From NCBI GenBank assembly GCA_025350465.1, contig JANXXU010000042.1, forward strand, positions 1 to 64,000: a stretch of 64,000 nt of DNA, in the 5' to 3' direction. The notes beneath the pieces are model-generated. The model searched no databases. It saw nothing but the letters and a program-made list of their open reading frames with translations, and was not told where the DNA came from. Source of the DNA: Alphaproteobacteria bacterium (GTDB lineage Bacteria > Pseudomonadota > Alphaproteobacteria > Micropepsales > Micropepsaceae). Of this stretch, positions 47,420 to 52,877 are shown piece by piece (position 1 is the first letter of the stretch; each line of letters starts with the position of its first letter). A program made the translations under genes and the position numbers.

Positions 47420-48211
47420 TCAGTACGCGATTTGAAGCCTGCGATAGCTCAGTGCTTCGGCGATGTAGGCGCGCGTGACGCTGTCTTGTGATTCAAGATC
47501 GGCGAGCGTGCGGGCGACGCGGAGCACGCGGTGATAGCCGCGCGCCGACAACTTCAAATTATCGACGGCCTTGCCCAAGAGCGCGACGCCGTCGGGGCTC
47601 GGACGCGCGATCTTTTCGAGGAATTCACCGTCGGCCTCGGCGTTGGTGCGAATGCCGTGGCCTTCGAAGCGCGCGCGCTGAATGTTGCGCGCCTGCGCCA
47701 CGCGGGCCGCGACTTCGGCAGAGCCTTCCGACGGTGGCGGCAAGGTCAAATCCTGGGCACTGACAGCGCTCACCTCCACATGCAAATCGATGCGGTCGAG
47801 CAACGGCCCGGAGAGTTTTGCCTGATATTCGCCGGCGCATTTGGGCGCGCGCGAACAGGCCTGCGAAGCGTCAGCCAGATAGCCGCAGCGACATGGATTC
47901 ATCGCGGAAACGAGCTGGACGCGCGAGGGGTAGCGCACATGCGCGTTGGCACGCGCAACCAATGTCTCGCCGGTCTCGAGCGGCTGGCGCAGCGAGTCCA
48001 GTACTTGGCGCTGAAATTCCGGGAGCTCATCCAAGAACAGCACGCCGAGATGCGCGAGAGATACCTCGCCGGGCTTCGCACGCAATCCACCGCCGACCAT
48101 CGCTGCCATGCTGGCCGAATGATGGGGCGCGCGAAACGGACGACGGCGGCCGATCGCACCGTTCTTCAGTTCGCCTGCGAGACTTTGGATCATCGAAACT
48201 TCGAGCGCCTC
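47420..48211 (-). pseudogene. comM: comM, C-terminal part (interrupted by transposon)
   Basis: This is the C-terminal 263 codons of a YifB/ComM AAA+ ATPase, cut off from its N-terminus by the element at 48212-52140. It contains GRRRPFRAPHHSASMAAMVGGG, the Walker B region HLGVLFLDELPEF, the SAMNPCRCGYLAD and CSRAPKCAGEYQ zinc-like blocks, and the Mg-chelatase C-domain (LSARGYHRVLRVARTLADLE). Reading from 52877 to 52141 and then from 48203 down restores one frame (REALEVSMIQSLAGEL) of about 506 residues, the normal ComM length. ComM is a branch-migration helicase that extends heteroduplex in natural transformation. This part has no plausible start of its own. Confidence 0.93.
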
Positions 48212-48234
48212 CGGTATTATGTATCAAGCGCACC
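48212..48234. repeat. Left terminal inverted repeat of the transposon
   Basis: Starts CGGTATTATGTATCAAGCGC and is a 23-bp perfect reverse complement of 52118-52140. It is preceded by the target duplication AGCGCCTC. Confidence 0.97.
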
Positions 48235-48535
48235 TCTAGCTCGTTGGCGTGAATGTCAAAAAACTACACGCCAATGTTTAGAAGCTTGGCCAAGTTGTTA
48301 GTGCTTCTAACTCATTTCGGCGGAAATCAGCCAATAGCGATGTAAAGCTCGCTAACAACTTTGTCGGTCGTTGTCATTTCAGGTTAAATACCCAACAAAG
48401 CGCGGTTTTCTGCGGCCTACCGGGCCATTGGCCCTATCAAACCTCATTTCTTCATTTCAAAACGAAAGAAACCCATTGCGCGGGTCGCAAAACGGGAGTA
48501 CCCGTGCGCCCGAATAATGAATTTGGAGATTTCCA
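48235..48535. other. Left subterminal noncoding region with inverted repeats
   Basis: No gene is seen in these 301 bp. Several inverted repeats are: TTGGCGTG/CACGCCAA (48244-48251 / 48267-48274), AAGTTGTTAG/CTAACAACTT (48292-48301 / 48352-48361) and the tight hairpin ACGGG-AGTA-CCCGT (48492-48505), which lies 31 bp before the first cargo start. They could be transposase subterminal sites or a leader that controls the cargo gene. Confidence 0.6.
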
Positions 48536-49000
48536 ATGGCCGGAAAGGCTCAAATTACTCTCGAAATTGACGTGCCGGGCCTGCGGCGCGAGAGTGAACG
48601 TCTTACGAACGAAGTGGCAGAACGTCTTGAAAAACTTGATGTTATCAAGAAGAAGCTTGCCGCTGTCGAACTTCTCTCACCGCATCTCGTCGAAGGTATC
48701 GAGCAAAGCTCTGCAATGAACGGTGATGACGATAAGCCGAAGCCGCTAGTTGATGCGATTGTCGAACATCTCGCAAAAACCGGCGAATCGCTCGAAGTCG
48801 CCGATATCAAACGGAGGATGTCGAAGCTTGGTTACGCTGATCTATTGAGCGAAAAGCCAAACGCGATCTACCAAGCGATGTTTCGCTTGTCGCAAGGACC
48901 GAAGCCAAGAGTACTGAAGCGAGGAACGAAGTATCGCGCTCCTCCGCCGGAATCTCCGGAAGGAGATACCGGGGCCTCGGGGGCCCCGGCTCGTCACTAA
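48536..49000 (+). CDS. Transposon cargo protein: coiled coil plus winged-helix-like domain
   Basis: A 154-residue protein, not recognised as a named family. Residues 5-45 (LEIDVPGLRRESERLTNEVAERLEKLDVIKKKL) look like a coiled coil. Residues 65-130 (PLVDAIVEHLAKTGESLEVADIKRRMSKLGYADL then AIYQAMFRLSQGPKPRVLKRGTKYR) resemble a winged helix of the HARE/HTH type. The tail is Pro/Gly-rich. The same two-part plan recurs in the protein at 51629-52063 at the other end of the element. It lies upstream of the structured RNA region in the same direction. A DNA-binding function is inferred only. Confidence 0.7.
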   Translation: MAGKAQITLEIDVPGLRRESERLTNEVAERLEKLDVIKKKLAAVELLSPHLVEGIEQSSAMNGDDDKPKPLVDAIVEHLAKTGESLEVADIKRRMSKLGYADLLSEKPNAIYQAMFRLSQGPKPRVLKRGTKYRAPPPESPEGDTGASGAPARH

Positions 49001-49059
49001 CCTATTGATTTAGCAAGTGTAGTAGCCGCGTGGCAGCGGCTCGAAAGGCAGGTGGAACA

Positions 49060-49258
49060 TGACAACATGAGCGGTCTACCCCGTAGGGCGGAGCCCGGTG
49101 AGAGCCGGGCTTTGCTCATATCGCGGGGGCTGCTTAGTGCCGGGCGGGCTTCCTAATCCATGCTCGACGGGTGCAACTCCCGTAGCCTCCACCCCTTTCG
49201 GGGAGACGCTATCGGTACCACAGGGAGGGTTTAACAACCGTCCCTGTGGGGTTTTCCT
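49060..49258 (+). ncRNA. Structured RNA candidate with tRNA-like 3' module
   Basis: A gene-free 294-bp gap (49001-49294) in which most bases can pair. ATGAGC (49067-49072) pairs with GCTCAT (49114-49119) and encloses the hairpin AGCCCGG/CCGGGCT (49092-49098 / 49105-49111). GGGGGCT (49125-49131) pairs with AGCCTCC (49184-49190) like an acceptor stem. It is followed by ACC and encloses ACGGG-TGCAACT-CCCGT (49167-49183), placed like a T arm. The T-loop bases do not match the canonical TTCRANT and the module is 66 nt, too short for a standard tRNA. A strong terminator follows. No known RNA family was recognised. Confidence 0.5.
49218..49258 (+). terminator. Strong intrinsic terminator inside the transposon
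   Basis: CCACAGGGA (49218-49226) pairs with TCCCTGTGG (49241-49249), extended inside by GGTT/AACC, followed by GGTTTTCCTT. It ends the plus-strand unit made of the cargo gene at 48536 and the structured region, and separates them from the opposing HTH gene. Confidence 0.85.
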
Positions 49259-51578: not shown

Positions 51579-51628
51579 GGGGCCCTCCAGCCTTATAGGA
51601 GGGAGGCCAAATGCAAGAGAGTCAAGTA

Positions 51629-52063
51629 TTAGCGGGTGATCTCCCAAAGGTTGTATTGGCCTGGACCTTGATGTGACCGCACTACACCGCTGTCTTGTTG
51701 ATGCCTAAGCGCGACCGCGACGCGCTTCGACATAAGCCGGATTAGCCGCTGATCGGTTTTGTCCAGCGCCCGCTCTACGATCAATTCGAAGGCAATATCG
51801 CGAGCTGTCAGAGGCTCCGCCGCGCACCGCAGGACGCTCAAGATTAGGCGGCTCATCTCCCCTCGCTTGGACCAGTCCGCAGGGGGACGAAAGGCCCGGG
51901 GCTTGATGGCTTCCACGATCATCGTGGGGTCAAACTGCACGATGGTGCTGTCCAGGCTTTCAAGGTCGCGGACAAGCTTCCTGAGCCGTTCGTGCGTCTC
52001 TTCTATCTCCAGCGCCATCTGGGCGCGACGCTTCACAAGGCCGGTGACAACGTAATCCGTCAT
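51629..52063 (-). CDS. Cargo protein: coiled coil plus winged-helix domain (second copy of the plan)
   Basis: A 144-residue protein. Residues 5-42 (VVTGLVKRRAQMALEIEETHERLRKLVRDLESL) form a coiled coil. Residues 65-140 form a winged-helix-like unit (GEMSRLILSVLRCAAEPLTARDIAFELIVERALDKTDQR then VAVALRHQQDSGVVRSHQGPGQYNLWEI). It is similar in plan to the cargo protein at 48536-49000, though sequence identity is low. Comparable proteins of about 140 residues are seen as hypothetical proteins in alphaproteobacteria. It starts 55 bp inside the right inverted repeat and reads inwards. Confidence 0.75.
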   Translation of the reverse strand: MTDYVVTGLVKRRAQMALEIEETHERLRKLVRDLESLDSTIVQFDPTMIVEAIKPRAFRPPADWSKRGEMSRLILSVLRCAAEPLTARDIAFELIVERALDKTDQRLIRLMSKRVAVALRHQQDSGVVRSHQGPGQYNLWEITR

Positions 52064-52117
52064 CGCTTCCTCCCATTGCTGGCAGGGACGCTAACGGCGG
52101 CTGAGTCAATTTGTCTG

Positions 52118-52140
52118 GGTGCGCTTGATACATAATACCG
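52118..52140. repeat. Right terminal inverted repeat of the transposon
   Basis: Ends GCGCTTGATACATAATACCG and is a 23-bp perfect reverse complement of 48212-48234. It is followed by the second copy of the target duplication AGCGCCTC (52141-52148). Confidence 0.97.
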
Positions 52141-52877
52141 AGCGCCTCGCGTGCGTCGAGCGGCGGCAGGAGCCCGGGCAATCGTGCGGCAAGCATCGAC
52201 TTGCCGGCGCCGGGCGGCCCGATCATCAAAAGGTTGTGGCCACCGGCCGCGGCGATTTCGAGCGCACGCTTCGCCGTTTCCTGGCCCTTTACATCGCGAA
52301 GGTCGGGCATGTTCATCAGGTCGTCGGCGAGTTTCGGCGTCGGCGCGCCCAATACCTGCACGCCCTTTAGATGATTGATCAGTGCAATCAAATTCGGCGC
52401 GGCGATGATCTCCAGTCCGCCGGCCCACGCTGCCTCGGGCCCGGAAAGCGCCGGACAGATGAACGCGCGCTCTACTTCCAATGCCTTGATCGCGGCGGGC
52501 AGCACGCCCGCGACGGGCACGATCGCGCCGTCGAGAGAGAGTTCGCCCAAGGCGATGTAACCTGCCATTTCGCTCATCGGCACGACGCCCATTACCGCCA
52601 AGAGCCCGATCGCGATCGGCAAGTCGTAGTGGCTGCCCTCTTTCGGCAGATCGGCGGGTGCAAGATTGACCGTGATCCGCTGAATCGGCAGCGCGAGACC
52701 GATGGCGTTCAACGCGGCGCGAACCCGCTCGCGGCTTTCAGCCACCGCCTTATCGGCGAGCCCCACGATGTTGAAAACGCCCGTCGCACCGCCGCCAGGG
52801 CTCATATGAACCTGGACGTCGACTTCGCGCGCTTCGATGCCGGCAAAGGCAACCGTGTAAATATGCGCGACGCTCAT
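52141..52877 (-). pseudogene. comM: comM, N-terminal part (interrupted by transposon)
   Basis: The N-terminal 243-245 codons of ComM from ATG 52877 (MSVAHIYTVAFAGIEAREVDVQVHM). It shows the Lon-protease-like fold of the family (GLADKAVAESRERVRAALNAIG, NLAPADLPKEGSHYDLPIAIG, GELSLDGAIVPVAGVLPAAI) and the Walker A loop in MIGPPGAGKSMLAARLPGLLPPLDAREAL. Beyond the duplication the frame runs into the transposon and stops there after an unrelated tail. The nucleotide-binding site is thus separated from Walker B and the C-domain, so no functional helicase is expected. The start overlaps the stop of the TPR-2OG gene by 4 bp. Confidence 0.93.

Follow-up and report, generated by a model that had tools for sequence, protein, structure and literature searches.

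Why does a transposon lie on exactly these bases of comM, and was the site chosen? This is the question raised by a stretch of 64,000 nucleotides (hereafter the window: positions 1 to 64,000 of the forward strand of contig JANXXU010000042.1, GenBank assembly GCA_025350465.1) from a bacterium of the alphaproteobacterial family Micropepsaceae, in which comM is split by an element of 3929 bp, and our answer is that the site was probably chosen, by a protein of 144 amino acids (OrfZ) encoded at the element's right end. On the comparison of its sequence with those of its relatives, the element is very probably a site-directed transposon of the IS1595 family that carries OrfZ as an exchangeable target selector. 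An earlier note on the window had described the split gene and the transposon, and had overlooked this main point. The parts on which the argument turns are as follows.

48204..48211: target-site duplication AGCGCCTC, left copy
48212..52140: whole element, delimited by terminal inverted repeats (TIRs) and duplication
48212..48234, + strand: left terminal inverted repeat, 23 bp
49635..50597, + strand: IS1595/ISXO2-type transposase, 320 aa, above the Pfam and NCBIfam cut-offs
51629..52063, - strand: OrfZ, 144 aa, coiled coil and winged helix in an AlphaFold2 (AF2) model, proposed target selector that tracks the target site
52118..52140, - strand: right terminal inverted repeat, 23 bp
52141..52148: target-site duplication AGCGCCTC, right copy
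47420..48211, - strand: comM 3' part, residues 244-506
52141..52877, - strand: comM 5' part, residues 1 to about 246

The limits of this element are fixed to the base, just as the earlier note had placed them: the inverted repeats are complementary at 23 of 23 positions, the 8-bp duplication flanks them on both sides, and fusing the flanks with a single copy of the duplication gives one ComM frame of 506 amino acids. GC content is 0.53-0.57 inside the element and mostly 0.60-0.65 around it, and the whole element is present once in the host genome (4.06 Mb, 52 contigs), where five other, much weaker transposase matches also occur. The transposase matches DDE_Tnp_IS1595 (Pfam, E 3e-42) and Zn_ribbon_IS1595 and scores 159 bits against the NCBIfam IS1595 model (cut-off 75), with plausible catalytic D, D and E/N residues picked out by eye only; this ISXO2-like DDE domain and zinc ribbon, scoring above curated thresholds, together with the inverted repeats and the 8-bp duplication, support at the sequence level the proposal of an IS1595-type cargo transposon. 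Empty sites in relatives had also been anticipated, and six of ten same-genus genomes do have a full-length ComM with the site uninterrupted, so that a split comM is not something that every relative carries; in the other four, the match covers ComM residues 33-505 (one genome), lies in pieces on different contigs (two) or is missing (one).

How often, then, does this happen elsewhere? A transposase scan of named genomes gave 70 loci, from which 49 elements could be delimited (both ends found, and a duplication with at most two mismatches), including that of the window (L001) and L006. Similar ends and exact 8-bp duplications thus recur in dozens of relatives, which tells us that the element is no chance assembly of repeats. 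Fully 22 of the 49 lie in comM, at two sites and on the same bases (one is shifted by a single base): comparison with ComM and reading of the junctions place 17 at the codons for LDELPE|F and five, including the window's, at those for E|ALEV. When the flanks, including those of single-ended loci, are mapped to four reference genes, 40 loci can be assigned to eight sites, namely the LPEF (17) and ALEV (6) sites of comM, four sites (5, 4, 2 and 1) in a GT2 glycosyltransferase gene named by Pfam, a Sphingomonas gene without a Pfam match to which we give the working name DWRR (3), and the 3' end of a gene that we take, from its FCIGK end motif, to be mnmE (2). In three of the 23 comM-labelled loci (L025, L042 and L043) only one of the two flanks can be mapped to comM at its junction, and L020, a complex locus with several TIR-like ends, was left unlabelled. 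Once further genomes and viral contigs are added, 61 elements are delimited and the eight sites hold 35 of them. The window's insertion marks the second comM site, which precedes the Walker B site by about 64 codons. There were no comM insertions among the 13 loci with a transposase of at most 45% identity (L007-L013 and L068-L073), seven of which carry just about 1.5 kb of flank; an OrfZ-like match is found in L068 and L069.

Within each site the duplications fall on identical bases, with single-base shifts in a few: those at the ALEV site read GARGCNCT in six of six elements, and those at the LPEF site begin GARTTY in 16 of 17, the remaining one being shifted by one base. Near-random insertion, with comM over-represented through survival or selection, is hardly a credible account of this pattern; loss of comM is certainly tolerated in Acinetobacter baumannii, being reported as inactivated in 22% of a collection (PMC11472951, cited here, like the papers below, from retrieved passages), but selection for null alleles would scatter insertions along 1.5 kb, whereas what we see is two base-exact sites in comM, and eight sites in four genes that follow the type of OrfZ. 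Both orientations occur, on the same bases, at the most populated sites (7:10 at the LPEF site), which suggests that orientation is not set by the selector. They also speak against a single old insertion inherited vertically, in which the common site would merely reflect common descent: some close pairs do fall within one host family, but the window's relatives have empty sites and the association of OrfZ with site survives the exclusion of neighbours from the same host family, so that we put the probability of this explanation close to nil.

What makes OrfZ the candidate selector? An iterative search finds this protein of about 145 amino acids in 48 of the 49 delimited elements, a few copies being short; the right end is no more than 100 bp away in 37 of the 48. 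The best phmmer matches of the window's OrfZ are those of the four other ALEV elements known at that stage (the truncated and unlabelled L040 is also high by aligned OrfZ identity), and its transposase is closest to the transposases of LPEF elements. In a first set of 30 elements the nearest neighbour lay at the same site in 30/30 cases for OrfZ and 21/30 for the transposase. Across all sites with at least two elements, the nearest OrfZ comes from the same site in 34 of 34 cases and the nearest transposase in 19 of 34 (5000 label shuffles gave, for either protein, a mean of about 9.8 and a maximum of 20), and with same-host-family neighbours excluded, families being assigned from record titles, the figures are 31/31 and 15/31. 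Maximum-likelihood trees of 36 rows carrying the eight site labels agree, since the OrfZ tree needs seven label changes, the minimum possible, and the transposase tree 12; support for the ALEV group on the OrfZ tree is 97/91. In short, the target is better predicted from OrfZ type than from the transposase.

It could of course be argued that the transposase itself picks the target and that OrfZ is merely a co-diverging regulator, and the transposases are indeed partly clustered by site, as their 12 changes compare with a shuffled mean of 18.1. We consider this very unlikely, because transposase distance adds nothing once OrfZ distance is given (partial correlation -0.07, in the first set of 30) and because 22 pairs of elements at different sites have transposases at least 75% (and up to 95%) identical and OrfZ proteins at most 31% identical. 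The extreme case is L016 and L017, whose transposases are 95% identical, whose OrfZ proteins are 22% identical and whose target genes differ; the DNA that they have in common amounts to 971 bp over the transposase, at 89%, and the short end repeats, with no further match at E 1e-5. Seven Sphingomonas elements tell the same story, with transposases 75-94% identical regardless of target, and OrfZ proteins 62-85% identical where the target is the same and 18-31% identical where it differs. These comparisons show similar transposases travelling with very different OrfZ proteins, in different genes, as would be expected of OrfZ as an exchangeable module.

The element also carries other features.

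48536..49000, + strand: cargo open reading frame (ORF), 154 aa, no family above cut-off
49004..49215, + strand: possible structured-RNA region with a T-arm-like hairpin, common to some relatives (fold z -3.7 for 48990-49300)
49295..49534, - strand: DUF6471 protein, 79 aa (Pfam PF20075, E 1e-26), in 34 of 49 elements
50647..51267, + strand: cargo DNA methyltransferase-like protein, 206 aa (PHROG 799, E 4e-61; no Pfam match)
51258..51647, - strand: cargo ORF, 129 aa, weak Mrr_N-like match (Pfam E 0.004, below cut-off)

The DUF6471 protein was rejected as target selector, its nearest neighbour lying at the same site in 17 of 25 cases, against 25/25 for OrfZ and 18/25 for the transposase in the same set, and the 154-aa and 129-aa ORFs were rejected as OrfZ paralogues (hhalign probability 9% and 1%).

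Could an RNA encoded by the element guide insertion through base pairing instead? There is a possible structured RNA at 49004-49215, with similar stretches in some other elements, and the surrounding 311 nt (48990-49300) fold better than shuffled sequences (z -3.7); a sub-stretch on its own gives z -0.5, and four shorter pieces fold no better than shuffles. We nonetheless regard an RNA guide as very unlikely, for the longest ungapped matches of elements to their own targets (mean 10.22) are not above those to other targets (10.25), a comparison that short split pairings could escape, and a model built from five elements, only the window's being in comM, turned up 12 additional matches, weaker and with E values of up to 1. 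As regards the RNA itself, the alignment of these five rows (window, L142, L065, L060 and L058) is loose, with a possible core GGUGG.ACAUGA that pairs with a 3' UCCACC and a T-arm-like hairpin; the window's copy has no match in Rfam or by ARAGORN, and that of L065 matches tmRNA with a score under the gathering threshold.

If OrfZ selects the site, its sequence should foretell where an element lies, and a prospective set was assembled by searching for OrfZ around three other centres (299, 347 and 397 genomes) and taking no more than the 30 best loci from each search. From at least 90 loci, 12 duplicates were dropped, OrfZ was confirmed in 70 of 78, and in 57 of those both an end and a flank could be read. 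The eight known sites accounted for 29 of the 57, every one of them (29/29) at the site of its nearest labelled OrfZ; the other 28 lay elsewhere or were not placeable. Where the nearest OrfZ was at least 50% identical, 28 of 35 elements were at the predicted site and none at another of the eight. Among the unlabelled flanks, three pairs have a junction gene in common, and in one of the three, L195 and L199, the OrfZ proteins are mutual nearest neighbours among 150 (76% identity), as OrfZ-directed insertion would predict.

Several observations weigh against an OrfZ-directed mechanism, or at least against a strict one. At 50% identity or more, seven of the 35 prospective elements lie elsewhere, and below 50% just one of 22 is at its nearest neighbour's site. 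L040, L059, L112, L114, L116, L147 and L026, a second copy in its genome, are off-site despite an OrfZ of a labelled type, and the host genomes of L040, L059, L112 and L114 have an intact comM. Homing is thus not obligatory; site specificity, though strong, either falls short of absolute or has drifted. The remaining two pairs with a common junction gene, L201/L202 (58% over 200 aa of flank) and L175/L176, are not nearest neighbours by OrfZ. By OrfZ the LPEF elements do not form a single clade, since DWRR is nested among them on the tree, and the OrfZ columns linked to site are spread over the protein, with no clear concentration in the recognition helix. Linked DNA at the right end might in principle act in place of the OrfZ protein. 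Finally, a Foldseek search with the OrfZ model returned nothing at E <=0.001, the best of its generic fold matches being at E 0.006.

Some individual loci deserve mention here. The off-site copy L114 is in a relaxase gene and L147 is on a viral contig; others look chromosomal by eye, so that we do not conclude that these elements hop to plasmids and phages only. The viral contigs L147 and L148 carry elements of the family with the same 8 bases, GAAATATC, next to an end, and the L147 flank looks terminase-like by eye. Nearly identical elements (L026 and L027) are found in one Phenylobacterium genome, one in comM and the other in a gene that is transporter-like by eye, a pair that may reflect either replicative movement or insertion at a secondary site. 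L025 (8422-8911) and L042 (9192-9492) each have a further OrfZ-like ORF outside the delimited element; that of L025 precedes the remaining half of comM, an arrangement that points to tandem insertions. In the Belnapia mucosa genome that hosts L056 (G422), comM is in two parts on contig C129, meeting at about residue 206-217 and some 10 kb apart, away from the L056 locus.

What sort of protein is OrfZ? The AlphaFold2 model, built from 42 OrfZ rows, has a pLDDT of 91.8 and a pTM of 0.58, with a helix at residues 2-44 followed by a winged helix; the protein is probably dimeric through the helix. VIA-align gives Z of about 9-11 to many winged helices, for example Zalpha and Fur/PerR, and DNA-binding ones are among the structural matches. 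Such a predicted fold supports DNA binding and not specificity. Structure searches gave generic winged helices only; a selector fold below the reach of Foldseek may still exist. Of the 42 members, five match HARE-HTH (PF05066; best E 1.5e-5), the window's OrfZ not among them, and no Pfam family is found in more than five; in the four members tested against NCBIfam no model reaches its cut-off, and the six tested against PHROG give one weak match.

The picture that we favour is therefore of recurrent, site-precise insertion with OrfZ type as its best predictor, and with a division of labour. The IS1595-type transposase would cut and join, a role suggested by its family, the common ends and the 8-bp duplications; OrfZ would recognize conserved codons of a single target gene, binding them as DNA, and would bring the transposase to them. 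The clade of the window's OrfZ is found at the comM E-A-L codons, and another OrfZ group uses the Walker B site. The insertion splits comM, and would weaken the integration of foreign DNA after uptake.

What might this mean for the host? ComM acts after DNA uptake, and its loss lowers the integration of heterologous DNA in other species (PMC11472951), so that the earlier expectation of an effect on uptake was imprecise: any effect of the insertion on transformation would fall at that later step. The uptake gene comEC is itself interrupted in the same genome (G000), its halves lying near the ends of contigs C21 (L149) and C52 (L150), adjoining other DNA and having 12 nt in common at the break; the host may thus no longer be transformable, and its comM insertion may be neutral. 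On one side of the comEC break is an ORF that looks like an excisionase-like helix-turn-helix protein by eye, and the dprA match in this genome is whole. The wider suggestion of the earlier note, that losing ComM may favour resident mobile DNA, has only indirect backing, from the base-precise, recurrent comM insertions of this OrfZ-carrying family and from the published case of Tn6022 and Tsy (PMC10293859). Against it, the family also recurs in the glycosyltransferase gene, the mnmE 3' end and another gene, so that loss of competence is not its general purpose.

How does all this compare with what is known? Tn7 uses exchangeable selectors (TnsD/TniQ) for base-precise insertion at conserved gene targets, with TnsD orienting the element. 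The present element resembles it in its proposed exchangeable selector, conserved targets and base precision, and differs in its 8-bp duplication and its either orientation; no TnsA, TnsB, TnsC or TniQ family was found by Pfam among its six ORFs of at least 79 aa. IS1595 insertion sequences with passenger genes are also familiar, as the ISNwi1 and ISNha5 types, and have in common with our element the transposase family, the terminal repeats and the 8-bp duplication; site direction and a linked OrfZ set ours apart. Closest in target are Tn6022 (Tn7-like) and Tsy, whose TnsF, a protein with a tyrosine-recombinase domain, targets a 10-bp stretch within the Walker B motif of ComM (PMC10293859). 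Those elements, too, insert into comM through a dedicated selector (here a candidate), and Walker B is the region of our LPEF site; the differences are the IS1595-type transposase, the 145-aa winged-helix selector candidate and, for the window, a site about 64 codons upstream. OrfZ, with its 144 amino acids of helix and winged helix, lacks a tyrosine-recombinase domain, no such Pfam family being found in 42 members. The best reading of these sequences is that the OrfZ element would work like the systems of Tn7's TnsD and TnsF while being unrelated to them. Other elements in comM have been reported and related to a conflict of mobile DNA with transformation (PMC11472951, PMC4774983); an island in comM of Xanthomonas is described too (PMC11736806). 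IS1595 elements homing to comM were not reported among the literature matches listed (subscription papers and ISfinder lay outside the search), nor do the retrieved passages of PMC10293859, PMC11472951, PMC4774983 and PMC11736806 speak of IS1595 elements in comM.

Why does this matter? Protein-guided homing with exchangeable selectors is known from the relatives of Tn7, and here it would operate in an unrelated and much smaller DDE transposon, with a selector family that has hardly been described. We think it likely that OrfZ represents a new class of natural, swappable homing modules, that with one 320-aa IS1595 transposase this 145-aa winged-helix protein alone would suffice to direct a multi-kb transposon to chosen codons of a conserved gene, and that Tn6022 and Tsy are joined by a third kind of transposon aimed at comM, which uses not only the same Walker B codons but another conserved motif as well. 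If that is true, these elements would furnish a compact, two-protein gene-insertion system, and with it a natural collection of selectors whose targets are known. They also add independent evidence that mobile elements converge on comM, a convergence that makes the conflict of transformation with mobile DNA testable in Alphaproteobacteria.

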